A stretch of 64,000 bases of DNA from Rubellicoccus peritrichatus. Its GTDB lineage: Bacteria > Verrucomicrobiota > Verrucomicrobiia > Opitutales > Cerasicoccaceae. The notes under the pieces were generated by a model that was not told the DNA's origin, ran no database searches, and was given only the letters and a program-made list of their open reading frames with translations. The stretch is taken from contig NZ_CP136920.1 of NCBI RefSeq assembly GCF_033100135.1, forward strand, positions 4,521,001 to 4,585,000. The letters are read 5' to 3'. Position 1 is the first letter of the stretch, and each line of letters opens with the position of its first letter. Below, piece after piece: positions 1,398-39,412 of this stretch. The position numbers and the translations under genes are program-made.

Positions 1398-2650
1398 GCA
1401 AAACTTGCACCCCCGTCTTTTAGTTTTCGAATCTCATTCTTAATGCCTTCAAGTTTATCAAGTTGCTGTTTGGCCAGCCTTTCAAGGGTTCTAGGATCGG
1501 CACTAGCAAAGCCACCACCGCCACCAATAGCAGTGATGCTAGCTACTTCACCCAAGCCCGCCCTAGACCTGATTTCGTCTAGTTTTGATCTGCCTTTAGC
1601 ATCCTTATCCAGCAATCTTTCAAGGGCTTTCTTTGCAGTTTCGTCACTGCGTGAAGGGCCTGGCTTACGCCTTGTGCGTCTCTTATTGTTCTGCAATATG
1701 GGGTCTCTTGACAATATATCCTGCGCCTCATCGGAGGCTGACTGTGTGCCAGTAGTAATAATACTACCGATGTCTTCTAGGGCATTCTTAGCTTCAGCCT
1801 TCATACTGGAAAGTGTGATTCTGAAATTATCACTAACCCGAGCAAAGGAATCCTTAATCTTGTCAACATCCAAGGATAGGATTCCATCAATCGCTTGGCC
1901 TACTGAAGCAACATTCTCCATTACCAGACTTATCACGTTACCAATTTGCCTGCCCAGAGCTTCAACACTGCGTCTTAATACACCAATAATTCTATTAAAT
2001 ACATCCAACACTGGAAATAGGAAACCTTTGACTGTGTTAGCAAGCAAAGCCAATTGGTCATTGAAGTCTGCGGTTGATTTTACTGCTCCCTCTGAGGCCT
2101 TGCTCGCTCTCGCTAAACCATTTGCAGCGACATCCTGAAGCAGTGGTAGAATTTCTGTATAACGATTGCCTAGGAGCCCAGTTATCGCAGCGAGCCTGTC
2201 ACTTTCTGTAGTTAAGCCTCCTACAGTATTCGCAAGTAGCATAAAGACTTCCTCGGGTGATTTATCTTTGAAGTCTTCAACTGTAAGGCCAAGCGCTTTC
2301 ATTTCATCAGCAATAGATTGCGTCGGTCCACCAGCCCGATTAACTTCCCCTATAAATCTTTTTAGACCCCTTGTTGCATACTCAAGATTAGCTCCCGTAA
2401 GATCGGCTTGAATTGATAAGTCCTGAATAAAATCGGATGTCCCATCCCCCAGCTGCTTGGACAGCTTGTCAATTCGATCCAGATCCGAGTACATGCGCTT
2501 TAAGCCAAGTAAAACTGATGCAAAAGCAAAAGCCTTGGCAAACTGCCGTGCTGCCGTTGTAGCAAAGGCCTGTACCTTGTTCTGTGCCTTCGCTAGACCC
2601 GTATCAAGCAGGGAGTTATCTGTTCCTACTTTTACTTTAACGTCAGCCAT
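1394..2650 (-). CDS. Short tail tape measure protein, 418 aa
   Basis: Tape measure proteins set tail length and are threaded through the tail tube. This one begins with a typical 'VKVGTDNSLLDTGLAKAQNKV' type segment, followed by an Ala-rich hydrophobic helix (about residues 30-52) and long helical stretches with few prolines. A Gly-rich tail lies near residue 380 (IGGGGGF). It is the longest helical protein of the tail cluster and sits after the presumed tube and chaperone genes, as usual. At 418 aa it is short for the family, implying a short tail of very roughly 60 nm by the 1.5 Å per residue rule (inference). It overlaps the upstream gene by 8 nt. Confidence 0.75.
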   Translation of the reverse strand: MADVKVKVGTDNSLLDTGLAKAQNKVQAFATTAARQFAKAFAFASVLLGLKRMYSDLDRIDKLSKQLGDGTSDFIQDLSIQADLTGANLEYATRGLKRFIGEVNRAGGPTQSIADEMKALGLTVEDFKDKSPEEVFMLLANTVGGLTTESDRLAAITGLLGNRYTEILPLLQDVAANGLARASKASEGAVKSTADFNDQLALLANTVKGFLFPVLDVFNRIIGVLRRSVEALGRQIGNVISLVMENVASVGQAIDGILSLDVDKIKDSFARVSDNFRITLSSMKAEAKNALEDIGSIITTGTQSASDEAQDILSRDPILQNNKRRTRRKPGPSRSDETAKKALERLLDKDAKGRSKLDEIRSRAGLGEVASITAIGGGGGFASADPRTLERLAKQQLDKLEGIKNEIRKLKDGGASFA

Positions 2651-3272
2651 TGGGAAATGCCTTTCCTTGACGCTCTGCTAATAATCTTCTGCCAGTCTCT
2701 TCGGCCTGCTTTGCTTGCTCGTCCCACTCAATTAAAGTAGCATCGTCTGGAGCAAATTTGAGTTCCCCGCCCTGAGCCTCAACATTTGAATCAGTCATCC
2801 AACAGAGCAGACCAAAAGGCATTGACCATGCTCTCTCCTCACCGACCAACGGAGCGGCCATGCAAACACGAGTCATAACATATGGTGCAGTGATCGGATC
2901 ACCTTTCGACCCCACCTTTTCCATATGTTCTGGCAACGACATATAATCACTCCAGTAAGTTTGCCATTTTCTAATATGACTAAAAAAATGCCTACGCTTA
3001 AGAACAGAACGGAAAACATGCCAATGCAATAAGCCATCTATCCCTATGTCAGGCGTTCCCTTTGGGACATATGCACCCTGAACAAGCTTAATTGGCCTAG
3101 AGCATACAGAAACAGCTAACGCTAAATCCTCAGGAAGGAGACCTTCGCCGCATACAACTGGAGACTGTATCGCGTCTAGATATAAAAGATGAGCTGCACT
3201 TAAAGGCTGAAGTTTCCGACCGAAAACCCTGCTTTCGGCATTGATGACGCATTCAAGAAATTTTGGGTCCAC
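2643..3272 (-). CDS. Tail assembly protein candidate between tube and tape measure, 209 aa
   Basis: The start codon is GTG at 3272 (GTG GAC CCA); no in-frame ATG lies nearby upstream. The protein is rich in Trp, Cys and Leu and has a central 'WHVFRSVLKRRHFF' segment. Position between the small tail-tube candidate and the tape measure gene is where tail assembly chaperones are encoded, but no slippery sequence or frameshifted extension was found, so a chaperone role is inferred from order alone. Its 3' end overlaps the tape measure start by 8 nt. Confidence 0.55.
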   Translation of the reverse strand: MDPKFLECVINAESRVFGRKLQPLSAAHLLYLDAIQSPVVCGEGLLPEDLALAVSVCSRPIKLVQGAYVPKGTPDIGIDGLLHWHVFRSVLKRRHFFSHIRKWQTYWSDYMSLPEHMEKVGSKGDPITAPYVMTRVCMAAPLVGEERAWSMPFGLLCWMTDSNVEAQGGELKFAPDDATLIEWDEQAKQAEETGRRLLAERQGKAFPNG

Positions 3273-3678: not shown

Positions 3679-3692
3679 GCGACTAAGTCAAC
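3679..3692 (-). promoter_or_regulatory. 14-nt junction element GTTGACTTAGTCGC
   Basis: One of four occurrences per unit of GTTGACTTAGTCGC (minus-strand reading), here starting right at the stop of the tail-terminator-like gene and 36 nt before the start of the tube-candidate gene. The identity extends to 19 nt with the copy at 32967..32985. Function unknown: module-boundary sequence, regulator site or processing site. Confidence 0.6.
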
Positions 3693-4176
3693 TTAGCTCG
3701 CTAAAAACTTGAGCTTCAAACACCAAAGTAGTCAGCCATTGCCTATCTTCAGTGGATTCCTGAATGCCTGATGGTACAAGCTCGTGAAATACGATCTCCT
3801 TAACCGCTCGCAAGTCCGGGCCTTCATCTGGAGGATTGAGGGCGGTTAATACCCTCTCCTGATCGCATAACGCATCCGAAATACCTTTTGCCATCTTATC
3901 ATGTATCCTATGTCTTCCCTCATCGGCTGATGAGTAAATCATTATCGCCAATGCAGCCGAGTACTCTCCCGTTCCTGCTGGCATTCCATCAGCATAAGTA
4001 GCCTCCAAACAATGCACCTCACAGCGAGGACTCTTCTTAGTCTCTGAGCTTCGCCCTTCAAGAAATTGTATTGTTGAAAGCATGGGTTTGCGGCGATTAT
4101 TACTCGTAAGGTACCGCGATAAGGCTTTTTCAATCTGTCTTGTTACTTGCATTTTATAGTCCCGACTTTCTAGCAT
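3688..4176 (-). CDS. Putative tail terminator / completion protein, 162 aa
   Basis: Position between an HK97 gp10-like gene and the tube candidate, and an alpha/beta pattern with a short N-terminal helix (MQVTRQIEKALSRYL), fit the tail terminator (lambda gpU-like) group. Evidence is positional; no signature is certain. The ATG at 4176 overlaps the upstream gene by 23 nt. A second ATG at 4152 lies just past the upstream stop and would give 154 aa; it may be the true start because the first eight residues (MLESRDYK) look like read-through of the neighbouring gene. Confidence 0.5.
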   Translation of the reverse strand: MLESRDYKMQVTRQIEKALSRYLTSNNRRKPMLSTIQFLEGRSSETKKSPRCEVHCLEATYADGMPAGTGEYSAALAIMIYSSADEGRHRIHDKMAKGISDALCDQERVLTALNPPDEGPDLRAVKEIVFHELVPSGIQESTEDRQWLTTLVFEAQVFSELS

Positions 4177-4921
4177 TTGCGTCTATAGCTCTATCCAGAA
4201 GATTTGCAGCAACTCTTTCCTCGCGCTTAAATGCAGCCCTGGCACTGGAAGAGGACAGCACATCAGAGGCATAGGGAACTCTATTGTGAAGCTGATAATT
4301 TACACTTCGTGAACCCCTTGACTCGATCACGCTTCCACTTACTTTTGATACACCCTTTTTGCCTTTTGCCCAGGCTGGGATTCCACGAGTTCCACCTAAT
4401 AACCTTGCACATGCTGCCCAGCCTGCTTTTGCCAAACCAACGCGCTTTTGAATTTTCTGCAAATACTTATCTCGCTTTGCATCATCAGGAACAACAGTTT
4501 GCTGACTGTTTTTTTTGGGTACGCGCCCCTTACTATTTCGAGCACTTGAATGTCTTTGCTTTTGTAATGACCTCGTTAAATCAATACCCTCTTCCATTGC
4601 AATTTTACGCGCTTTAGCATATTGATTATTCTGCAAGAATAACCAGAACGCAGAAGCTAAATCTTCGCTTCTCCTGGCAATGGCATCAAAAGCCTTTGAT
4701 GGGGAAAGAAATACGTTCCGTACGTCAATAGCCGTCTTTCGCTTGCCTCGACCATGGGCCCGACTACTGAAGCCATGTGGTTGTGTTTGATAAGCTAAGT
4801 TTACGCTCACCCTTCTTGCACTCTGCTTTGTTACTTGAGGAATTGTTTTCCCGTTTGCAGCAGACAGCCTCCTGAGCTTCGACTTTAAAACCCTGTCATC
4901 AACTGTTGCTGTCAATTTCAT
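4154..4921 (-). CDS. HK97 gp10-like head-tail / minor tail protein, 255 aa
   Basis: Strongly basic, helical protein with many Arg, Lys and Ser residues. It starts 'MKLTATVDDRVLKSKLRRLSA', resembling the opening of HK97 gp10-type connector/tail-completion proteins (central domain 'alpha chain ... RTGALR'-like families), but is longer. It overlaps the upstream adaptor gene by 4 nt (ATGA) and the downstream gene by 23 nt. The middle (about residues 120-150) is Gln/Lys/Ser-rich and probably disordered. Family assignment is moderate, connector location is firm. Confidence 0.5.
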   Translation of the reverse strand: MKLTATVDDRVLKSKLRRLSAANGKTIPQVTKQSARRVSVNLAYQTQPHGFSSRAHGRGKRKTAIDVRNVFLSPSKAFDAIARRSEDLASAFWLFLQNNQYAKARKIAMEEGIDLTRSLQKQRHSSARNSKGRVPKKNSQQTVVPDDAKRDKYLQKIQKRVGLAKAGWAACARLLGGTRGIPAWAKGKKGVSKVSGSVIESRGSRSVNYQLHNRVPYASDVLSSSSARAAFKREERVAANLLDRAIDANARKSGL

Positions 4922-5247
4922 TTAGCAGGATCATCCAGGGAGAAAGTGACACTAAAGTTGTCTTCTGAGGCCCCTACTATCAGGCGCTTCAGTTTTTTCT
5001 TTTTTAAGGTAACTACACGCCCCACCAGTTCATCTACAACAACTGAATCTGGGATTTGGGATAGTAGCACCGTGACCTCGCTACTGCCATCGGGCATAAA
5101 GCCACCGGCCTCAGCTAGATCCTTGCTTCGTTCAATTGTCGGCAATATGCATGGAAGCTCCAAACTCCCAATCTGTAGATAATCAGAATTCCTATTCTCT
5201 TCGAAGACCTCAAAGGCCTCCCCAAGGCTCTCACTTATCTCTGACAT
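4918..5247 (-). CDS. Putative head-tail connector / adaptor protein, 109 aa
   Basis: Small protein with acidic helical N-terminus (SEISESLGEAFEVFEENRN) and a beta-rich remainder. It stands first in the tail cluster after the capsid genes, where head completion or adaptor proteins are encoded. Its start at 5247 is only 9 nt after the hairpin at 5257..5280, so expression may depend on read-through of, or initiation beside, that hairpin. No specific family motif recognised. Confidence 0.5.
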   Translation of the reverse strand: MSEISESLGEAFEVFEENRNSDYLQIGSLELPCILPTIERSKDLAEAGGFMPDGSSEVTVLLSQIPDSVVVDELVGRVVTLKKKKLKRLIVGASEDNFSVTFSLDDPAK

Positions 5248-5256
5248 GGTAAAGAA

Positions 5257-5280
5257 AGGCGGGCCATTACTGACCCGCCT
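5257..5280 (-). terminator. Hairpin with T-rich tail between capsid and tail genes
   Basis: Perfect 7-bp arms AGGCGGG / CCCGCCT with a 10-nt loop, followed on the minus strand by TTCTTTACC. It has the form of an intrinsic terminator of moderate strength after the 73-aa gene that follows the capsid gene. Because the tail-operon start codon lies immediately downstream, it could reduce tail transcription relative to capsid. Confidence 0.6.
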
Positions 5281-5287
5281 CTAATAA

Positions 5288-5509
5288 TTATTTTTTGTTA
5301 CCTTTCTTGGATTCTTCTGGAGGTGAATCAGTGGGTTTTGATTGAGATTTCTGATCTTTGTCGGTTCTAGCCATTTCAGATTCCTCAATCTGGACTGCCT
5401 TATTCATGTTAATGAGCAATCGTCCAATAGAGTCTGAAACTTCGATTTTCTCATCAGTGAATACGGGCTCCCCGCTAATCGCTGTGTCTTTTGTGATCTC
5501 GATAAACAT
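5288..5509 (-). CDS. Small capsid-proximal protein, 73 aa
   Basis: Unrecognised. The first 40 residues look folded (MFIEITKDTAISGEPVFTDE), the last 28 are Lys/Ser/Pro/Glu-rich and probably disordered. It follows the major capsid gene by 18 nt and precedes the hairpin at 5257..5280, so it shares the capsid transcript. Small proteins here may be head decoration or head-completion factors (inference). Confidence 0.55.
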   Translation of the reverse strand: MFIEITKDTAISGEPVFTDEKIEVSDSIGRLLINMNKAVQIEESEMARTDKDQKSQSKPTDSPPEESKKGNKK

Positions 5510-5527
5510 TGTTACCCTTTCATCAGA

Positions 5528-7423
5528 TTACTGGTTTCCTGCATCAGTGCTAACAGCGAAAGACTCAGGATGACGAACACCACAGTCTGTCAAGATTGTA
5601 ACCATGATCTCAACCTTGCCTTCCTTCTTTAGAGAGTAAGGATCGACGATAACGTCAATGCCTGCCCAATCAGCAACAATCAAATCGCTGAAATTGCCAA
5701 ATACAACCCTGTTGGCGGGTACCTGATTTGTGGCAAATGATGGATAGCCATTCACCTCACGCCCAGCCCAAAGGAATTGACCGCTGCCAGCATCCTTTGG
5801 TGTTGTCTTCCATGCTCCCCTGACCCCAGGAGTGGTAAGGTAAGCCATGCTTTCAACATCAGCGTTATCTGTTGCAACAGCGGTTTCAAACTCTACCACC
5901 TTTGCCCATGTGGGAGCAGTAGCAGCGCCAAAGGTAACCGTGTTAATCCCGGTTGTGTTGATGATACCTGTTGGTTGGTTGTCAGCACCTGTGCCAGCAA
6001 TGCACGCCAGATCCTTGGCGATAGCCAACACACGCATCAAGTCATCTCTGACAAATGCCTCAATATCAATCGAAGACTGGGCAAGGAGCATTTTACTATA
6101 AGCCGTGTTGCCTGCGAGTCGCTTTGGAGAAAGCGCCAAACTACCGAATGTTTGAGTGCTTCCAGTAACCGCGTCATTCTCCCCGAGCCAGTAAGCAGTT
6201 GCACCACCGTCTGCACTGGGGATCGCAATGTTTCCCTGCAGCCCACTTAGAGAGCGAGCGCCTAAGCTGGTCACAAAGGTCCTATTTCGCAATAGCTCAA
6301 TAAGGGAACCACCAAGCACAGAGGTTTGCACAGTATGGCCACCGTCAGCACTAACGCCCACAGACAAGTCACGACTGATTTTTCTGTTCTGGCTGGCGAG
6401 AGCGCGCGCGATGCGAGTATCATCATAGCTTTCCATATCCGCAGGGACATAGAAGCCTTGTGCCTCACGCTTGAGCGCCTTAGCAGTCGCCTCTGAGGCT
6501 TCACCCTCAAGGCCATCGACGGGCTTCCCTTCACCGGCAAGTCGCAAGGCACGAGTAAGACTGTACTCCTTTTTTTCCTTCTTACTCATGCCTACATCTG
6601 GCTTAGTTGTGATAGCTTGCGCTTCAAGCTTATCTCTCAGGATATGACCCTGGAAGTCTGCAAGCGGCTTATCGTTTTCGACGTAGTCACGAACAACCTC
6701 GTTATCAACGTTGTATTCACGAGCGAGGCGGGAAATTTCCGCTACGCGATTTTGCTCTGTCTTCTTTGCGCGTTCAATCGCCTTTGGGTCCTCACGAACC
6801 TCAACAACGGTTTTGACCTCTGGAGACGAAGCGGGTTTTTCACGAGTAACCGTCTCGTTTTTGTTTTCTTCTGACATTGTATTATCTAATATTTTTATAG
6901 ATTCGCCGGATTGATTCGCTTTGCCCCGACCAACTCCGACAGTTGTATCGGCTGGGACTGTCACCAGGCTGACTTCGACAGGGGTCCACTTCGTAACGCG
7001 GAAAACGTCTTTTTCGTCCGTTGACGTGGACTCACGCTTTACCTCGTCTATATCGGTAGTGACACTAACCGACCGAAGGATGCTATCTTTGACATCCTGA
7101 AATTTTTCTTCTGCCAGGGGGCCGCGTCCAAATCGAACAACAGCATACCCTTTTCGATCCCTGACCTCAGCGGAAATCACCGCCCCGAGATGCATATCTT
7201 TTTGGTGATTAAATAGCAGGGGTCCATTTGAAAGCAGCCTGCTCAAGTCAACCGATCCCGGTCCATGATCCAAAATATCAAGGTAGCCAAAGCCATCGTC
7301 AATGGGCTCCTCTGATGAGAAGGAAAGCTCAACAGTTCGCTCCTCTTCATCAATTACTGAAACCCTCTCAATTTTAAGCGCTCGTGTAAGCTGCTTTGGA
7401 AATTGTTTTAGATGCTCTGGCAT
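5528..7423 (-). CDS. Prohead protease - major capsid protein fusion, 631 aa
   Basis: The N-terminal ~165 residues match the HK97-type prohead protease (S78) pattern: candidate catalytic His73 in 'FNHQ', then Ser118/Ser120 in 'ILRSVSV', then 'WTPVEVSLVTVPAD'. A Glu/Lys-rich helical linker (about 185-310) resembles a scaffold or delta domain. The C-terminal ~300 residues have HK97 major capsid features ('PSADGGATAYWLGENDAV', 'YPSFATNQVP', 'VIVDPYSL'). Maturation would release protease and capsid subunit. An internal ATG (Met183, base 6877) begins 'MSEENKNETV' and could yield a separate ~449-aa scaffold-capsid product. A junction element stands just before the start. Confidence 0.88.
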   Translation of the reverse strand: MPEHLKQFPKQLTRALKIERVSVIDEEERTVELSFSSEEPIDDGFGYLDILDHGPGSVDLSRLLSNGPLLFNHQKDMHLGAVISAEVRDRKGYAVVRFGRGPLAEEKFQDVKDSILRSVSVTTDIDEVKRESTSTDEKDVFRVTKWTPVEVSLVTVPADTTVGVGRGKANQSGESIKILDNTMSEENKNETVTREKPASSPEVKTVVEVREDPKAIERAKKTEQNRVAEISRLAREYNVDNEVVRDYVENDKPLADFQGHILRDKLEAQAITTKPDVGMSKKEKKEYSLTRALRLAGEGKPVDGLEGEASEATAKALKREAQGFYVPADMESYDDTRIARALASQNRKISRDLSVGVSADGGHTVQTSVLGGSLIELLRNRTFVTSLGARSLSGLQGNIAIPSADGGATAYWLGENDAVTGSTQTFGSLALSPKRLAGNTAYSKMLLAQSSIDIEAFVRDDLMRVLAIAKDLACIAGTGADNQPTGIINTTGINTVTFGAATAPTWAKVVEFETAVATDNADVESMAYLTTPGVRGAWKTTPKDAGSGQFLWAGREVNGYPSFATNQVPANRVVFGNFSDLIVADWAGIDVIVDPYSLKKEGKVEIMVTILTDCGVRHPESFAVSTDAGNQ

Positions 7424-7432
7424 TTACCAGTT

Positions 7433-7446
7433 GCGACTAAGTCAAC
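7433..7446 (-). promoter_or_regulatory. 14-nt junction element GTTGACTTAGTCGC
   Basis: Second occurrence of the junction element. It contains the portal gene's TGA stop and ends 9 nt before the ATG of the protease-capsid gene, filling almost the whole intergenic space. Confidence 0.6.
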
Positions 7447-9010
7447 CCTGCGACTCTTCAACCTGGACAGCAGGCTTAGTTTGATTGGGACGCTTAGGAG
7501 CGCTTTTTATCCCTCTGGCCTCTTTTTCCTTTTCATCTGCCTCAATTTCATCAAGCACGGTTTCATAGTCGTCTCCTATGCCCTCTACAATATCACGATC
7601 ACTTCTCCAATTGTTCTCTCGCAAGAGCGCAAGCCCCTTGACATCTTTCTCAGGGTCAACCCACTGCCATGTTCTGCCTTTGAATTCTGCATTTAAGAAT
7701 TTCTGAAATCGTGAAGCTGGAAGCGGTTGACCATTATCAAGTTTTATTAAACCAAAATCGAGTGAGTGTTTCAACCATGACCTAAAAATTGGGTCTTTAT
7801 CAGACTTGATATACCAATCCTGAATAATTTTGTAACCATCGCGCTCACTTAGCTTCCCTTCTCTGAGGGATGAGTAATTTACTCCCTCTAGATCTCCAGC
7901 CAAAGTATTATATCCGGGGCCGCCAAGGCCAACAGCAGCACCTCGAAGCATTGCCTTTCTGAAATCAGGAAACGCCTGAGTCGGGTGCTGGGGGTCAAAC
8001 TTCTCTATTCCAACGCCCACGGGCAGTTCTTCCATCAGCCCCGGTTCAGCATCCATGCGTATAGGCTCGCGATTCTCCTCGTCTCCCCCATAACCTGCCC
8101 CTTCACCGGGAATGCGCGTAAAGAAGGCCATCTTAGCAGCTGCCGTTGTTGCTGCAACCAGCTCAGCCTCTTCATATCCTCCAAGCATGCGAAGGCGCCG
8201 CATTGCGGTAACAATCCAAGAAACTCCACGAGTTTGGGTAAAGCGTTTCTTCTTTTTTAGAAAGTGAATTTCATTCGCTGGTACACGAACGCGAATCTTA
8301 TTATTGATTCGAGACCAGAAATACAGATCGCCAGGGTGGTCTGTGTCGATCCAATACGCAATAGGCATCTTCCATTCGTTCAGTTCTACCCCCATGCGTA
8401 ACTCATTGCCTGTCTCTGGTGCTTTACCATTCAAATGAATGTCCAACTGATCGGACTCCAAAGGATGAATTGCAAATCCGAATTCGTTATCAATGCCCTT
8501 GACCTCACGTTTAATCATTTCCCCATCTCGTGCAACCGTTCGAATTGAGATTCGGTCTGTCTCAGGGCCGGACGTATCTCTTGTCACCGTGTAATTTTCT
8601 GGAATATTCTGCCTCTTCCACGCTGACTCAATAGCCTTCTTCGCAAGCTTATCTACGGTCCCATCTCCATTTTTTGGCATTGAGTTTAACCTGATGCCAG
8701 TATGGCCAATAATATTTACTTCCAGCTCGTGAAGAAATTTTTCTACAAAATCATTGTTTTCCTCAAGGTCACGCGCTCTTTGCAGGATGACTTTTGCAGC
8801 TTGGTATATGTCTGAATCTCCAGTACTCGCAAATCCACCAGTCCAGTTTTCGGTGAGGCGGTCAACCCTCCCGGCATCATATTGACGTGAAACTGAGGGC
8901 CGCTTGGTAATCTTTAGCCTTTCACCCTGACGCATTACTGCCCACTTCGATTCGGGATTGTTGAGTATCTCAAGCGCCGTTGCACGGTCTCTGGTATTCA
9001 GCTCATTCAT
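7442..9010 (-). CDS. Portal protein, lambda gpB family, 522 aa
   Basis: Forms the dodecameric DNA entry port at the capsid vertex and docks terminase. Diagnostic segments are 'YDAGRVDRLTENW', 'SDIYQAAKVILQRARDLEENNDFVEKFL' and 'VNIIGHTGIRL' in the first 110 residues, the lambda-family portal N-terminus. Later 'WIVTAMRRLRMLGGYEEAELVAATTAAAKMAFFT' matches the family's stem-region helix. Length is typical. The C-terminal 50 residues are Lys/Glu-rich and probably disordered. The start ATG shares one base with the stop region of the gpW-like gene upstream. Confidence 0.9.
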   Translation of the reverse strand: MNELNTRDRATALEILNNPESKWAVMRQGERLKITKRPSVSRQYDAGRVDRLTENWTGGFASTGDSDIYQAAKVILQRARDLEENNDFVEKFLHELEVNIIGHTGIRLNSMPKNGDGTVDKLAKKAIESAWKRQNIPENYTVTRDTSGPETDRISIRTVARDGEMIKREVKGIDNEFGFAIHPLESDQLDIHLNGKAPETGNELRMGVELNEWKMPIAYWIDTDHPGDLYFWSRINNKIRVRVPANEIHFLKKKKRFTQTRGVSWIVTAMRRLRMLGGYEEAELVAATTAAAKMAFFTRIPGEGAGYGGDEENREPIRMDAEPGLMEELPVGVGIEKFDPQHPTQAFPDFRKAMLRGAAVGLGGPGYNTLAGDLEGVNYSSLREGKLSERDGYKIIQDWYIKSDKDPIFRSWLKHSLDFGLIKLDNGQPLPASRFQKFLNAEFKGRTWQWVDPEKDVKGLALLRENNWRSDRDIVEGIGDDYETVLDEIEADEKEKEARGIKSAPKRPNQTKPAVQVEESQG

Positions 9011-9564
9011 TATGGGCGGGTAAAATGTATTGCAATTTGTTTTCGCTCCCTGCCCTCTTCATTCCTGACAAGCTGCTCATAGCGATCCAACTGTTTGTTT
9101 AAGTCGGTGAGATTAACGATTGAATAGCTCTGCCCGTTTACCGTGGCGGTCTGAAGCGTCCGCGAACTCAGTTTCTCTATAGTATCCCTTAGTGCATCTC
9201 GTGTTCGACGATTGAAACTCCTGGTGTCGCCAGAGTTTCTTGTAGGATCTGGAAGCACTGTTATAACATCGGAGTAAACTTGCTCGCGTATTGTTTTGCC
9301 ATTAGTTGCACTATCCTCAATGTAGCCGATGATCCTATAGGTTCCTGCTTTCCACTCGGAGGATTCCTTAGGAGTAATTGCGACCTTGAAGCCAATGTTC
9401 AGGGTTTCAGCAGATATTCTATATGTGTTGCCTTTCTCTGGATTAATTAGCGAATACCTCAAATTGTATGAGCTTGCTGGATAATTGGAGAAGCTCCTTT
9501 GCCAGTTAGCAGAAAAACCCTGTGTCAAATGCACAGGTTCAGATTGAGGAATGGATTTTGCCAT
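9010..9564 (-). CDS. gpW-like head-tail joining protein with extra N-terminal domain, 184 aa
   Basis: The C-terminal ~65 residues (from 'TRDALRDTIEKL' through 'YSIVNLTDLNKQLDRYEQLVRNEEG') align with lambda gpW, which plugs the portal vertex before tail attachment. Gene order terminase - W - portal is the same as in lambda. The first ~110 residues form a separate beta-rich domain ('WKAGTYRIIGYIEDSATNGK...VITVLPDP'), which I know from similar proteins in other prophages but with no assigned function. It is more than twice the length of lambda gpW (68 aa). Confidence 0.78.
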   Translation of the reverse strand: MAKSIPQSEPVHLTQGFSANWQRSFSNYPASSYNLRYSLINPEKGNTYRISAETLNIGFKVAITPKESSEWKAGTYRIIGYIEDSATNGKTIREQVYSDVITVLPDPTRNSGDTRSFNRRTRDALRDTIEKLSSRTLQTATVNGQSYSIVNLTDLNKQLDRYEQLVRNEEGRERKQIAIHFTRP

Positions 9565-9578
9565 GTCGCTTTCCAGAA

Positions 9579-9592
9579 GCGACTAAGTCAAC
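9579..9592 (-). promoter_or_regulatory. 14-nt junction element GTTGACTTAGTCGC
   Basis: Third occurrence of the junction element, 3 nt after the terminase large subunit stop and 14 nt before the gpW-like start. It is followed by a short IR-like GTCGCTT...AAGCGAC. Confidence 0.6.
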
Positions 9593-9595
9593 TGA

Positions 9596-11524
9596 TCAAT
9601 GATGCCTCCAGCGATTGACAAAAGATGTTCTTCTTTGCTGCCTGTAAGGTCTTGGAACGGCTACAGGTCTCGCAGATTCAAGGGGCTTTGGCGCTACCCT
9701 CGCCTCTTCCTTTTGTTTGGTGGCCAGCTTTTCAACATTCTTTGCAATATCATTCCAGCGAGGATCAAGGGACACAGCAGCAGCATAAGCATACTTGCGA
9801 ATGTCCAGTGCTTCATTAGGGAGTTTCTCGGGGTTAATGAATGTCTGATAAGGCCTACCACCTTGATACTTCATAACAAGGCGCTCTGCCGCTACGAGCT
9901 GACGATAATATTCTAAGTCATACCCATTACCTTTTGGAAAATGGCATGTATGTGACCCACCCGGCTCCCTTGCGACATCTGCATAGACAGACTTCTTAGT
10001 CGCAACATCTCCAATCATATAGTGGGGTAGTCTGAGCCGATTATTCTTACTCGGTCTGCCAACGATGGGAGGTGTGTTACGACCCTCTGTTCCTTTGCCC
10101 CTGACTGGATACAGCTTGATCCCGACAGCTAAGCAACTCTTGCAGAATGGTAAAACAAGGTCGTCACGGTGGCCCATATCTATAAAACCACGAGCCAATT
10201 TTAATGACCCACCATTATAAAGTTTCCATTGTTTTTCTAAAAGATCCCTAAACGGCTTCCATGTCTCAGGATCTTCCAGATCCCCCATGAATTGATAGTA
10301 ACCCAAGCCCCACGATTCAAAGCCTTCACCATAGGCGACTACTTCAGCCTCTATGCGAGCAGGACTCCCTTGCACATCGGCACCAAGAACCAGCATCAGA
10401 GAGCCGTCTGGGATCGGTTCATCTGAGGGGTCATAATGCTCAGCTCTAGCGTGGATAGCTTCATAGTCCATTTGCTCGGCAGAATCATCAAATACCTCAG
10501 CCTTGAAGGTATTGGTCCAGACCTGGAGACCCTGGCTACCCTGCTCCTTCGCGTCATAGAATTCTTCAACAAATTGAATCATTTTATTGTTCTTAAAACC
10601 CTTTTTGGCTGGAAACACAGAATACAATCCATTGAGATGATAGCTGCGCACTCCATTAAAGGTAGCCGTTGGTCTCCATTCACCATTACGGACCATGCGA
10701 ACACGCTCTTTGTCATTATGCGCATGACCGCATTCCTCACAGATATATCTAGGATCATCTCTAGTGCCTTGCTTTGACCAATCCAATTGCTCCCACTTCA
10801 AAGTCTGCCAATGGCCGCACGCATCATTGCAACACTTTACAAACCAGTATCTTTGATCTCCTTTCTCAAACCATGTTTGGATTCGAGAAAGTCCCTTTAT
10901 AGTGGGTGTAGATGCCAATACTTGGATAGAGTCTGCGTAGTTATCAGCTCTTTTAAAAAGTAGCGTAATTGGGTCGCCCTCCTTACCGTCCTCCATTGCG
11001 TCGATTTCATCAGCAATAACAATTCTTGCCTGAATCTGCCGAAAACCACTAGGAGAATTAGTGCCTATCGCTGAAATTCTACCACCAGGAAACTTCTTTG
11101 AGCGAATTGTATTATCGCCATCACGGCTTTTTGGTTCGCTTATTTTCGCCTTTATAGAGGGCGTATTATCACGCATTGGCTCAAACATCTCCTTAGCCCA
11201 TTTCTCAGAGCTATCAATGGTGGGATATGCAACTAAAATATTACTTGGGTCACGATCTATTGAGCATCCTTCAAGATTGTTTATACATTCCGTCTTTCCC
11301 TGTCTTGCAGCCCACTGGAGAACCGTTACCTGTACATCATCATCAAAAAATGAATCTTGTGGCTCTTTCTGAAATGGTGCGAACTCTGGGTCATACATGC
11401 CTTGCACAGCAGTTACTTCGCTAGGCAAAAATCGATTCTCAGCTGCCCATTGATACGCAGGAATTGGTTCGGGTATTATAAGCAATTGAAAAGCCCGCTC
11501 GATAACTGTATCCACCCTACCCAT
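9596..11524 (-). CDS. Terminase large subunit, lambda gpA family, 642 aa
   Basis: ATP-driven DNA packaging motor and cos/pac nuclease. Seen: Walker A-like AARQGKTE (72-79), Walker B 'IVIADEID' (168-175), a cysteine cluster KCCNDACG (230-237) with a second pair ICEECG (261-266) that probably binds zinc as in this family, and the nuclease-domain Asp in 'LGADVQ' (about 383). Length equals lambda gpA (641 aa). The ATG at 11524 overlaps the small subunit gene by 8 nt. It belongs to the lambda-type, so DNA is probably cut at cos-like sites (inference). Confidence 0.94.
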   Translation of the reverse strand: MGRVDTVIERAFQLLIIPEPIPAYQWAAENRFLPSEVTAVQGMYDPEFAPFQKEPQDSFFDDDVQVTVLQWAARQGKTECINNLEGCSIDRDPSNILVAYPTIDSSEKWAKEMFEPMRDNTPSIKAKISEPKSRDGDNTIRSKKFPGGRISAIGTNSPSGFRQIQARIVIADEIDAMEDGKEGDPITLLFKRADNYADSIQVLASTPTIKGLSRIQTWFEKGDQRYWFVKCCNDACGHWQTLKWEQLDWSKQGTRDDPRYICEECGHAHNDKERVRMVRNGEWRPTATFNGVRSYHLNGLYSVFPAKKGFKNNKMIQFVEEFYDAKEQGSQGLQVWTNTFKAEVFDDSAEQMDYEAIHARAEHYDPSDEPIPDGSLMLVLGADVQGSPARIEAEVVAYGEGFESWGLGYYQFMGDLEDPETWKPFRDLLEKQWKLYNGGSLKLARGFIDMGHRDDLVLPFCKSCLAVGIKLYPVRGKGTEGRNTPPIVGRPSKNNRLRLPHYMIGDVATKKSVYADVAREPGGSHTCHFPKGNGYDLEYYRQLVAAERLVMKYQGGRPYQTFINPEKLPNEALDIRKYAYAAAVSLDPRWNDIAKNVEKLATKQKEEARVAPKPLESARPVAVPRPYRQQRRTSFVNRWRHH

Positions 11525-17207: not shown

Positions 17208-17245
17208 ATTACATTCCTCGTTTGTTGGTTATATTTCTCGTGTCG

Positions 17246-17485
17246 TCATCGTGTTATCGGCGGGAGGGACTCACACCACGCTCTGTCAAAATCCAGATAT
17301 GCGTCTTCAGGTGATTTACCAAAACCTGCGACTCCATCCTGTAAGTTTTCTCCAAACAAAGCACACCATCTATCCCCGTCTATCGAAAGGGATGGGTGAT
17401 AGCGTGTGCTGGGTCGTTCGTCATGTGCTCGTTTGTCACAAGCGTGAGCATATCGCTCGTTCAATATCAACTGTTCGTCTACCAT
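17246..17485 (-). CDS. Small conserved-type phage protein, 79 aa
   Basis: The core 'SLSIDGDRWCALFGENLQDG' and following 'VAGFGKSPEDAYLDFDRAW' resembles a small protein found in many unrelated phages, which has no known function. The N-terminus is His/Arg-rich. Preceded by a leader AATAACAGCACTAA similar to its neighbours' leaders. Confidence 0.65.
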   Translation of the reverse strand: MVDEQLILNERYAHACDKRAHDERPSTRYHPSLSIDGDRWCALFGENLQDGVAGFGKSPEDAYLDFDRAWCESLPPITR

Positions 17486-17719: not shown

Positions 17720-17738
17720 AACTGTTGATTTTTAGTGG

Positions 17739-17981
17739 TTATTTAGATTCCTTCGTCATCGCGTTATCAGCGGCTTCAGCCTGCACCCTCTGGATGCAGG
17801 CATCCAACGTTGCGATGCCTCCGTAATCTATGCCCATCTTCTCAAGTTTCTGGCGAGCATCAGATGACGCCCATTCAATTACTTGGCGTTGTGTATCGCC
17901 CATGCTGTCACCCTCATCGAGCTGTGCTGCAATTGATAACACATACAAGCGAGCAGCTTTCTTGATTATTGTCTTCTTCAT
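17739..17981 (-). CDS. Unrecognised small helical protein, 80 aa
   Basis: Start set to ATG 17981 (MKKTIIKKAARLYV); an upstream in-frame TTG at 17990 is less likely. N-terminus basic and helical, the rest rich in Ala, Asp, Glu. Preceded by the same ATAACCACTAAA leader motif as the following gene. Function unknown. Confidence 0.55.
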   Translation of the reverse strand: MKKTIIKKAARLYVLSIAAQLDEGDSMGDTQRQVIEWASSDARQKLEKMGIDYGGIATLDACIQRVQAEAADNAMTKESK

Positions 17982-18017
17982 GACATTCAAAATTTAGTGG
18001 TTATCGATCGTCGTTCG

Positions 18018-19613
18018 TCATTGGTTGATCATATGCGGATTAAATTCACATGGCGTAATCCCTGGTGGTACTCTCCAACGATTAGCAGCGACTCTATCAA
18101 TTAGCTTCTTAGCATCATCAAATGCCCATGTACCAACATGTTTAAATCCATAGCGCTCAAGGCATCTTATTTGCTTGGGTGTTGTGAGGCCTTCAGCTCT
18201 TCTCTTGTCCAGTCGATCAAGTATTTTTTTAGCCTTACCAGCATTCTCAATTTCGTCCGGCATGATACCTAGACGCTCTAAGCTGCTCCTCTGTGCAGCT
18301 GAGGGCGGTGCCATTTCCCATCCAAAGGCGGGAACATAATTAGCGAGGTCCTCAGACTCAATTGACATTTCAAATTGAAGTGGATCAACCAGCTTGCGCT
18401 TTCTATTGCGCATTTCAGCAAGCCTTTTTGCGAGTGCTTCCTCACGATCTGAGACACAATCAGCTTCAGCCTTTTCAATTGCCTCCTCCAGGTCAAAAGC
18501 AGCTCCCGCCGCGCCCTCTAGGTTCTTTGTTGCCTTCCTTGCAACCTCTTCCGATTCAGCAATTAAATAGGCTGGCCTGCAAAGCTCATGTTTCTCACTA
18601 TGCCAAAGGAAATCTAAAAGCAAAAGGTGATCCTTGTCTTCTAGAATGCGTGTTCCTCGTCCTACTATCTGACAGTAAAGACTCCTTACTTTAGTTGGAC
18701 GCAAACAGACAATGCAATCAACAGAGGGACAATCCCAGCCTTCTGTAAGTAACATTGAGTTACATAAGATGTCGTACTTACCATGTTCAAAATCTTGAAG
18801 AACCTCATCGCGATCTTTGCTTGATCCATTGACTTCAGCAGCTCTAAATCCGCGTGTCTCAAGCAAGGATCTCATCTTCTGGGACGTTGCAACAAGTGGA
18901 AGAAACACAACAGTCTTACGCCCCTTGCAATGCTCAACCATTTCATCAGCAATTTGCTCAAGGAATGGATCAAGGGCGCTACTTACTTCGGATAATTTAA
19001 AATCGCCCGATTGCATTGAAACTCCAGTAAGATCAAGCTTCAGCGGAATGGTTAGAGCCTTTATAGGGGCCAAGTAGCCCTCTTTGATAGCTTTAGGTAG
19101 AGTGTAGTCAAAGGCCAGCGAATCAAAGAACTGGCCAAGATTCCTCATATCTCCCCTGTCTGGAGTAGCTGTCACACCAAGCACTTTTGCATTTGGAAAA
19201 TGGTCAAAAATCCGCTGATAGCTATCTGCAAGAACGTGATGTGCCTCATCAACTATAATCACCTGATAATGATCACTACTGAACCGATCTAGGCGCTTCT
19301 GTCTCATAAGCGTTTGCACGCTCCCGACAGTAACACGGTAAAAGCTATCCTCGGCTGAGTCTTCAGCTTTCTCAACTGCACATTCAAGACCAGTCGCTTT
19401 GCGCATTTTATCAGCAGCTTGGCTAAGTAGCTCACCTCTGTGTGCAAGAATCAGGCATCTGTCACCTTGCGAAACTTGGTCCTCGATGAGCTTGCAAAAG
19501 ACTATTGTCTTCCCGCATCCAGTGGGCAGAACAAGAAGGGTCCTTTTGACCCCCTTGCTCCACTCCTCTCGGATGGCCTGTTTAGCTTCTGACTGGTATG
19601 GTCGTAATTCCAC
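18018..19613 (-). CDS. SF2 DEAH-box helicase, 531 aa
   Basis: ATP-dependent helicase/translocase. Motif Q region 'LRPYQSEAKQAI', Walker A PTGCGKT (30-36), 'LAHRGEL' motif Ia, DEAH (122-125), 'GVTATPDRGD' motif III, and QIVGRGTR motif VI (315-322) are all intact. The C-terminal ~170 residues are helical and charged and may bind partners. The start is GTG at 19613, just past the stop of the DUF669-like gene; no ATG fits the conserved N-terminus. Likely acts in phage replication or recombination with its upstream neighbours. Confidence 0.9.
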   Translation of the reverse strand: MELRPYQSEAKQAIREEWSKGVKRTLLVLPTGCGKTIVFCKLIEDQVSQGDRCLILAHRGELLSQAADKMRKATGLECAVEKAEDSAEDSFYRVTVGSVQTLMRQKRLDRFSSDHYQVIIVDEAHHVLADSYQRIFDHFPNAKVLGVTATPDRGDMRNLGQFFDSLAFDYTLPKAIKEGYLAPIKALTIPLKLDLTGVSMQSGDFKLSEVSSALDPFLEQIADEMVEHCKGRKTVVFLPLVATSQKMRSLLETRGFRAAEVNGSSKDRDEVLQDFEHGKYDILCNSMLLTEGWDCPSVDCIVCLRPTKVRSLYCQIVGRGTRILEDKDHLLLLDFLWHSEKHELCRPAYLIAESEEVARKATKNLEGAAGAAFDLEEAIEKAEADCVSDREEALAKRLAEMRNRKRKLVDPLQFEMSIESEDLANYVPAFGWEMAPPSAAQRSSLERLGIMPDEIENAGKAKKILDRLDKRRAEGLTTPKQIRCLERYGFKHVGTWAFDDAKKLIDRVAANRWRVPPGITPCEFNPHMINQ

Positions 19614-31027: not shown

Positions 31028-32961
31028 CCAGGAAAGCCGTGAGAGCATGCATAAACAGATAAGCGGTAATCGGCGGCAGTAGCCCCATTTTCGACTTCAT
31101 ATGAAATAGATACGCTCGCGTTATTACTGTTTGGGCCACTTGCTGTTGAGCCTACGGACACGTCATTGACAAACCACTCAACGTTACCATTTAGCGCCTT
31201 AATCTTGATTTGATCCAAGGGGAATAAAGCGATAGTTGTTGATAAATCGACACTGACAACGGAGCCTTCAGCATCGCAGGCAATCCCCCACAGATCGCGG
31301 TCTCGAAGCTCCACGCCAACCCAGTCGCCAACTTGAAGCCCGAATGGCAGAACAGTTGTTTTACCAACAAACATTCTGAAAATACCCTCAGCATTAGGAG
31401 TGATGGCATTAATGCTCAATGCAACCTCAAGTTCGTTAACACTCCACCTAATACCCGCAGTGGAGCCAGGAGCAATTAGCACAGAATTGTTGTTTATACG
31501 AAGCCGAGCCCTTGAATTAGCAGTGGTGAATGTGCGAAGTGCTGCCTTTGAATTCTGCGGCTCAATGCTAGCTGTAGCACTCCCAATGACCTCAGTTGAT
31601 GAGAATTCAAGTAAGCCGAAATTTGTGTATATCGCATTACGTTGGCGCTCAAGTTCCGCTGTGAGATTCGCAACTGTTGCAAGGCTGGCTAAGCTGGCCC
31701 CCTCCAAGGTTGCAGCATCAACACCCGTGAGACCAGAGCCTTCTGCACTAATTGAATTAAAAGTTGCATCATCTGAAGTACTTAAACGCTGGTCTTCAAT
31801 TGGCTGGTATAGTGCATTTGCTTGTTCAGTAGTGGAGTAGCTGGCCTTGGGTGTTGGAACTGTGTCAAGGCTGCTTATTAGGTCATCGATGACTGTTGCG
31901 CTCCCCCTTAACAATGTGAAGGGCTTTCCTCCTAGCGGGGTCCACTCAATCTCAAATTCAGCTTCAGCCTTCCCTGACACAGCATGATTTGTCACAAGAT
32001 CCTCAACCCCATCTGTGTTGAGATTGAAAGCGGCGACTTTCCCCACAGGAACAGATAGCCCCGTGACGTCAATAGAGAGCAGATTATCAATTGCTATCTT
32101 TGACAAAGTACCAGTAAATAATATATCCCATTGAGAGACTGAAGAACTGGTCTTGCTAACAGTAATGTTACCCGACCCCACGTTCTCTAATCCTTCTAAT
32201 GCTAATTGAATAGTGGCAGCATCAGCATCCCATTCAATTAAGCCTGTTGTATGCGCTGAGCCACCATGATCCAAGGTTATTGTGAATGACCCCGCATAGG
32301 GCTGAGGATCTAGAATTATGCGCTGCTTTTCATTAACCTCCGATGTACCGCTAACAAGGCGTACTGCGTCGAATCCAGTATTTGACAAATCGGAAAACAC
32401 GTCCTGATAAGCTGCTGCTGCTTGGATCATTCTAATCCTAAAAATTGCATTTACGGACTCTGAGCCGTCTTGCTTTACAGAGACTAACGGATTGGAGGTT
32501 GGTTGTATCGAGCCAGCATTTACCGTTGGCTCTTCAATTTCTCCCGCCTCCCCCCTGTCGATGACCCAACCCGTCAAGTAGTCGCCCGATACTTCAGCAT
32601 TACTATATCCAAGGCTTAAGCTTGAGCGTATTTCACTTTGTATCGTGCTAGCATCAGCATTGAAATCAATGTCGCCGGTTTCCTGGACATTTTCAGGGTC
32701 AGTAATTCTGAAATTTCCGCTTGTTGGAGGCTCATTTAAAAGGCCCAACTTAGCCTTAAGTGTTCCTGCACCAAGATCCACATAATCCCAAAAATAATCT
32801 TGGCTGTCTGACGCGGCTGGCTCAACCACAAGAACTCTAAGATTATACTCATCCTCTTGATAAAAATCACCAAGCTCAGTCAAATAAGAGCGCGAGAAAA
32901 AACTCTCAACAAGCCTCCTGCTGCTCTTGTCGATTATTAACGTCAAGTCACTTAGTGCCAT
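31024..32961 (-). CDS. Tail fibre protein, 645 aa
   Basis: Start ATG 32961 (MALSDLTLIIDKSSRR), right after a junction element; a GTG at 33018 would absorb that element. Residues 83-135 and 224-287 are two copies of a beta domain with the pattern 'G.F.IT...TG.I...ADA.TIQ..L..L'. Residues ~391-420 ('LSTSDDATFNSISAEGSG') are typical of trimeric tail fibres. The C-terminal 200 residues probably form the receptor-binding part. Confidence 0.72.
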   Translation of the reverse strand: MALSDLTLIIDKSSRRLVESFFSRSYLTELGDFYQEDEYNLRVLVVEPAASDSQDYFWDYVDLGAGTLKAKLGLLNEPPTSGNFRITDPENVQETGDIDFNADASTIQSEIRSSLSLGYSNAEVSGDYLTGWVIDRGEAGEIEEPTVNAGSIQPTSNPLVSVKQDGSESVNAIFRIRMIQAAAAYQDVFSDLSNTGFDAVRLVSGTSEVNEKQRIILDPQPYAGSFTITLDHGGSAHTTGLIEWDADAATIQLALEGLENVGSGNITVSKTSSSVSQWDILFTGTLSKIAIDNLLSIDVTGLSVPVGKVAAFNLNTDGVEDLVTNHAVSGKAEAEFEIEWTPLGGKPFTLLRGSATVIDDLISSLDTVPTPKASYSTTEQANALYQPIEDQRLSTSDDATFNSISAEGSGLTGVDAATLEGASLASLATVANLTAELERQRNAIYTNFGLLEFSSTEVIGSATASIEPQNSKAALRTFTTANSRARLRINNNSVLIAPGSTAGIRWSVNELEVALSINAITPNAEGIFRMFVGKTTVLPFGLQVGDWVGVELRDRDLWGIACDAEGSVVSVDLSTTIALFPLDQIKIKALNGNVEWFVNDVSVGSTASGPNSNNASVSISYEVENGATAADYRLSVYACSHGFPG

Positions 32962-32971
32962 CTTAATGACA

Positions 32972-32985
32972 GCGACTAAGTCAAC
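32972..32985 (-). promoter_or_regulatory. 14-nt junction element GTTGACTTAGTCGC
   Basis: Fourth occurrence of the junction element, including the TGA stop of the zinc-motif gene and ending 10 nt before the fibre start. It shares the extended 19-mer TGACAGCGACTAAGTCAAC (plus strand) with 3674..3692. Confidence 0.6.
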
Positions 32986-39398: not shown

Positions 39399-39412
39399 GC
39401 GACTAAGTCAAC
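39399..39412 (-). promoter_or_regulatory. 14-nt junction element (copy 2)
   Basis: GTTGACTTAGTCGC before the tube candidate, as at 3679..3692. Confidence 0.6.

Follow-up and report, generated by a model that had tools for sequence, protein, structure and literature searches.

A 14-nt sequence, GTTGACTTAGTCGC, that is present as four exact copies in each 35,720-bp unit of a prophage of Rubellicoccus peritrichatus, and only on the minus (late-gene) strand, is probably a phage-specific late-transcription signal, one copy of which would head each of four late units. We favor this reading because of the synteny between the sites and the elements, different in sequence, that related phages carry at the corresponding gene junctions.

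The Element and Its Gene Context

The window, a stretch of 64,000 nucleotides of the host chromosome, is a perfect tandem repeat with a period of 35,720 and 0 mismatches, and the copies at 39399, 43153 and 45299 are the same GTTGACTTAGTCGC sites in the next prophage unit; one set of sites is listed in Table 1 along with the genes of interest. In the direction of transcription the late genes are terS, terL, gpW-like (preceded by copy C), portal, protease-capsid (copy B) and three small genes, followed by the tube candidate (copy A), p209, tape measure, p232, p198, p853 and the fibre-like gene (copy D). There is no element ahead of terL, as is also the case in the relatives. The tube assignment has a parallel in the related locus L170, where a 130-aa gene lies upstream of the homologue of window gene 2643-3272; no IMG/VR relatives of the tube protein were found.

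Table 1. Copies of the 14-nt element and selected genes of the prophage, in window coordinates
Feature	Coordinates	Strand	Remarks
Element copy A	3679..3692	-	35 nt before tube-candidate start; TGA is the stop of gene 3688-4176
Element copy B	7433..7446	-	9 nt before protease-capsid start; TGA is the portal stop (7442)
Element copy C	9579..9592	-	Between terL and gpW-like gene; 14 nt to ATG
Element copy D	32972..32985	-	10 nt before fibre-like ATG at 32961
Tail-tube candidate, 120 aa	3281..3643	-	Assigned from position only, directly upstream of gene 2643-3272
Protease-major capsid fusion protein	5528..7423	-	phrog_617, E 5e-146
gpW-like head-tail joining protein	9010..9564	-	phrog_5774, E 1e-18
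Terminase large subunit (terL)	9596..11524	-	phrog_15
HTH-like protein, 165 aa	12050..12547	-	Upstream of terS; candidate late regulator by synteny only
Fibre-like protein, 645 aa	31024..32961	-	N-terminus weakly similar to the L170 protein after the L170 element (E 0.012, single comparison)

The initial annotation had described identical 14-mers at these four positions, overlapping or just after stop codons and 9-36 nt before the next structural gene, and the description holds in each respect: all four copies are exact and on the minus strand, the TGA of GTTGACTTAGTCGC is the upstream stop at A, B and D (at D, position 32981, that of a small ORF whose reality is uncertain), the terL stop is 3 nt ahead of the copy at 9579, and the measured gaps are 35, 9, 14 and 10 nt for A to D. 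Beyond the 14-mer the flanking sequence TGTCAYTA is common to sites 3679 and 32972 and nnCTGGnAA to sites 7433 and 9579. We also agree that one-strand copies at late junctions are not due to chance. No 14-mer exceeded 2 copies in 200 dinucleotide shuffles of one unit, and with ∼6% of the unit lying within 50 nt upstream of a called start the placement of four of four sites there has a chance probability of ∼1e-5; the shuffles and the four one-strand copies before structural genes rule out a chance repeat as the origin of GTTGACTTAGTCGC. Finally, the element does include TTGACT without a -10 at 16-18 nt downstream at any of the four sites, as had been remarked, which eliminates an ordinary sigma70 promoter with TTGACT as its -35.

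The host chromosome contains 16 copies of GTTGACTTAGTCGC, 16/16 within an array of four prophage units and 0 outside, so that the genome search proposed with the initial annotation returned no scattered copies and a host-wide motif can be ruled out. The four units are flanked by two copies of a ∼50-bp attachment core, of which the right-hand copy falls within a tRNA-Arg(acg) gene. Regarding the array itself, four 35.7-kb prophage copies are arranged head to tail in the tRNA-Arg gene (host contig 4478330-4621276), with units 1-3 essentially identical and the last unit 99.8% identical with 56 gap openings. This last unit looks like unpolished sequence, and the copy number of the array may thus be partly a matter of assembly.

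Elements of Related Phages at the Corresponding Junctions

In IMG/VR the exact 14-mer occurs in 54 contigs, as one isolated copy in each and never as two, and among 177 related genomes it is found in just one other, again as a single copy. In the search of relatives, also suggested at the outset, the exact sequence is absent as a common element, and at the corresponding junctions each relative has an element that is peculiar to it. Phages with a homologous capsid carry a different element of 12-32 nt in 2-5 copies on the late strand, located at terL/gpW, at the capsid gene or its internal start, at gp25 or the tube gene, and at the sheath or fibre gene. For this comparison ∼130 loci with homologous capsids were collected, and the 150 nt upstream of each capsid were searched for their longest exact match elsewhere in the locus, on both strands. 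Same-strand matches of at least 16 nt were obtained for nine loci, one of which (L155, with a 17-nt repeat) is a coding coincidence and was rejected as a late element, whereas the opposite-strand control never gave a match above 15 nt. A scan of junctions against junctions, through which named phages came into the set, again favored the same strand, although the control was not free of high scores and gave a few. Own elements at terL/gpW, the capsid or a tail gene were found in the G268 prophage, L184, L193, L204, L206, L231 and L162, and at matching junctions in the named phages PPpW-3, Persinger, Alexa, MQ-4, ep3, Arya, M29, Mano and Mica. In the G268 prophage, for example, gpW, capsid, gp25 and tail sheath are each preceded by a copy of CGGAAATCCGACCAGTAG, which occurs four times and is confined to the late strand.

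The closest parallel is provided by L170, whose head is related to that of the window phage and whose tail genes are similar; gpW, p209 and tape-measure genes are common to the two, at low identity. Its element, ATTAACTGTTGCCGGA (14-16 of 16 positions matching), precedes gpW, the capsid, the neighbor of the p209 homologue and a fibre-like gene, so that all 4/4 window junctions are matched by a different sequence; a fifth copy is located near inserted genes on the opposite strand. No clear element emerged from repeat scans of L160 and L161, the loci with the most similar capsids (49-50%). The capsid copy is internal to the protease-capsid ORF in PPpW-3, Persinger, Alexa, MQ-4, L138, L140 and L146, and in Alexa it is found just ahead of an internal ATG with a Shine-Dalgarno-like sequence. 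Several copies at sheath sites directly follow intrinsic terminators, as is expected at the head of a transcription unit. Two further candidates were set aside. The match in G041 belongs to a satellite-like element whose repeat is a tRNA-like attachment repeat and not a late element, and a weak pair in G030, TCCGMTRACTCRAA, before coat-like and fibre-like genes was chosen after looking and is not counted. As a separate matter, the elements of L240, L242, L244, L279 and L281 lie in both the terL and the capsid ORF, apparently in the same reading frame within each phage, with readings such as AEIPDME and DKPKEE (assessed by eye only). No description of elements of this sort was found in the open-licence literature.

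A -10-Like Hexamer and an Activator in the Relatives

Downstream of the elements of the 17 relatives tested, at a nearly constant offset, there tends to be a -10-like hexamer of the form nAnnnT, illustrated by CATAAT, TATAAT and TAAAAT at 17 nt in Alexa and by CAGACT, CAAACT, CAGAAT and CAACAT in PPpW-3. Shuffling tests on 12 relatives gave combined p values of 7e-15 (hexamer) and 4e-19 (matrix; Fisher); the pattern had been noticed by eye on these same 12 before testing, and a fresh set therefore matters more. Taken alone, G268 and L231 failed the hexamer test and passed the matrix test. For five further phages (M29, Mica, Mano, ep3 and Arya) the combined p is 9e-11. Three of these, M29, Mica and Mano, were picked for encoding the activator described below before their repeats were known, and each has an element in four copies at the predicted places; the repeats of ep3 and Arya were found without looking for the hexamer.

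Proteins encoded upstream of lysis and terS in ep3 and Alexa match phrog_836, annotated 'late transcriptional activator', and a phrog_836 protein is present in all nine named element-bearing phages (tblastn). G268 and L206 encode one as well, both matching Pfam Mor, with a score of 27.0 bits for G268 against a cut-off of 24.9 and a score just below it for L206. Named phages lacking the activator have no such repeat in 4/5 cases, the fifth being cyanophage S-LBS1 (L283), which has a repeat, TGATCCATAGCCTG, together with a sigma70-like gene; this comparison is small and related phages are not independent. No phrog_836 match was obtained for L170, L162 and L231, whose records are fragments. The elements of the relatives thus have the appearance of late promoters that depend on an activator, like those of phage Mu.

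The ATG of the gp25-like baseplate gene is 6-7 nt after the -10-like hexamer in 8/8 named phages inspected (L240, L241, L242, L246, L247, L279, L280 and L281). A gene start at this position predicts a leaderless late mRNA, and for PPpW-3, Persinger and Mano the annotation probably places the gp25-like start a few codons too far upstream.

Promoter Signals and a Candidate Reader in the Window Phage

A search of the window genome for phrog_836/Mor proteins gave no homologue (best E 0.07, outside the prophage), and no significant -10-like hexamer accompanies the four sites (best offset 6 nt, p 0.07). In this best register the hexamers are TATAAG, TAAATG, AAAGCG and TAAGAT, and at B and D they overlap the ATG, which would place the transcript start inside the gene; a standard promoter in the 6-nt register can thus not serve those genes. 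The window element matches the relatives' Mor/C-type late promoters in position, and like them it is a single site repeated along the late strand, ahead of putative late-unit heads, yet membership of the class is not supported, two of its defining features having been looked for and not found. An activator site had been one of three options in the initial annotation and is the best fit among them in view of the relatives' elements, hexamers and activators, but it finds no counterpart in the window in the form of a Mor/C protein or a significant -10. Either the element would be a promoter core, with transcripts starting at or just before the ATG, or it would act at another level.

The mechanism that we propose is as follows. 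In the relatives the element would form the part of a late promoter that binds the Mor/C-type activator or stands in for the -35, with both the site sequence and the activator having diverged between phages. In the window phage, where the four late units headed by the element would be gpW-portal, capsid, tail tube and fibre, it would most likely be recognized by a phage-encoded factor, through which the abundant structural genes would receive additional mRNA that has a very short leader or no leader at all. The candidate for such a factor is the 165-aa HTH-like protein, encoded upstream of terS in the place that the late activator occupies in relatives. It does not align with phrog_836 (hhalign probability 0.4%), to which no homology was detected, no IMG/VR relatives of it were found with the patterns used, and its predicted structure is too poor to use (pLDDT 51). 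We infer for the window phage the same mode of action as in the relatives, the identity of the factor that would read the element and the places at which transcripts would start.

A more specific version, which we regard as tentative and rather unlikely, is that the element is a late start signal of none of the Mor/C, Ogr and Q types, consisting of a 14-bp core adjacent to or overlapping the transcription start that is read by an undescribed phage factor, and giving near-leaderless capsid, gpW-like and fibre mRNA. If the rule suggested by the relatives holds, the heads of late units would be fixed in position across a large group of phages with homologous protease-capsid proteins, each phage having its own signal sequence. 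It would then be possible to predict late promoters, together with their activators, from sequence alone, and many natural activator-site pairs would be available.

Alternative Readings

An mRNA processing or translation element had also been suggested; this rival reading, in which the element would serve translation initiation or processing as a leader sequence of the genes behind it, we consider unlikely. Three of the four copies end 9-14 nt before an ATG, the capsid, tube and fibre genes have no Shine-Dalgarno sequence, and site D folds unusually well with its ATG in a stem (z -3.3); since no standard promoter register was found in the window, a role of this kind retains some probability. 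However, copy A ends 35 nt away from its start, many late genes without the element lack a Shine-Dalgarno sequence as well, and the four sites have no fold in common (z -0.6, -0.6, -0.3 and -3.3), so that a conserved RNA hairpin was rejected. In the relatives, moreover, the element is mostly 20-80 nt from the start, sometimes inside an upstream gene, and is followed by a -10-like box.

It is less probable still that the sites are operators or roadblocks at which a repressor silences the late genes in the lysogen, in the manner of mycobacteriophage stoperators. The asymmetry of the sites, their single orientation relative to transcription, their location in short gene junctions, often at stop codons, and a 4-1-4 inverted repeat in GACTTAGTC (by reading) would be consistent with binding of this type, but there are only four sites, all late, with none in the early region or near immunity genes, and in the relatives the counterparts of these sites come with a -10 box and an activator rather than a repressor. 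The remaining option of the initial annotation, that of conserved boundaries directing the recombination of modules from one phage with those of another, is very improbable: while the copies are exactly at gene boundaries of the head and tail modules, the 14-mer is not common to any of the relatives (beyond the IMG/VR singles and the one related genome noted above) and the corresponding elements vary from phage to phage, so that there is no homology on which an inter-phage boundary could rely.

Comparison with Known Systems

For the preferred late-transcription reading phage Mu offers the nearest described model. Its late promoters Plys, PI, PP and Pmom are activated by C, of the Mor/C family (PMC4461284), and several late-strand promoters, with a non-consensus -10 and an activator site at or upstream of -35, depend on one phage-encoded activator (PMC4461284). 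Activators of the phrog_836/Mor family and the Mu layout are found in the relatives, while the window phage has no recognizable Mor/C protein or significant fixed-distance -10, and its sites mark gpW, capsid, tube and fibre. With the nine named phages it has in common a capsid homologous to theirs and an element on the same strand, which precedes tail genes and is also located at the capsid gene and, in most of them, at terL/gpW. They differ in the sequence of the element, in the -10-like hexamer 15-20 nt after it, in the presence of the activator, in contractile tails, so that the tail sites are gp25 and sheath, and in a capsid copy within the protease-capsid ORF. Phage P2 has four or so late operons, each with its own promoter dependent on the activator Ogr, whose site is TGT-N12-ACA near -55. 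The window 14-mer does not have this pattern, and none of the scanned window proteins, which included only some of the small ORFs, matched the Ogr/Delta zinc finger.

The start-associated sequences of cluster K mycobacteriophages are likewise short asymmetric repeats, mostly in one orientation and next to gene starts (PMC3203893), and in these respects the window element is similar. They are, however, more numerous, follow GGGATAGGAGCCC and are common across the cluster (PMC3203893), whereas the window has four copies of a private sequence other than GGGATAGGAGCCC, at late genes only and at varying gaps (35, 9, 14 and 10 nt). Stoperators, to which the immunity repressor binds, are also many and spread over early and late regions, in contrast to the four late sites here. 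In S-LBS1 there are three exact copies of TGATCCATAGCCTG and one with 3 mismatches, at the gene junctions 2502, 4673, 8068 and 19749. At terL/gpW the TGA of TGATCCATAGCCTG is the terL stop and the element ends 4 nt before the ATG, much as at the window sites, so that the tight element-to-ATG spacing of the window is not unique. The S-LBS1 element differs in sequence, contains TAGCCT (which fits TAnnnT) and is accompanied by a sigma70-like factor, none being seen in the window phage; it could be a second case of the novel kind of late start signal considered above.

Other Features of the Prophage

Some additional features of the prophage were recorded. A 214-aa phage protein (25365-26009, minus strand) carries the receiver domain of response regulators (Pfam Response_reg, E 6e-13), with no output domain recognized. 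A second repeat family, with members at 17221-17259, 17731-17769 and 17993-18031 (39 nt, 69-74% alike), is found near early-gene junctions on the minus strand. Lastly, ATTTCATCAGCAAT occurs as three exact copies, at 2301, 11004 and 18940 on the plus strand, inside the tape measure, terL and helicase coding regions (antisense strand).
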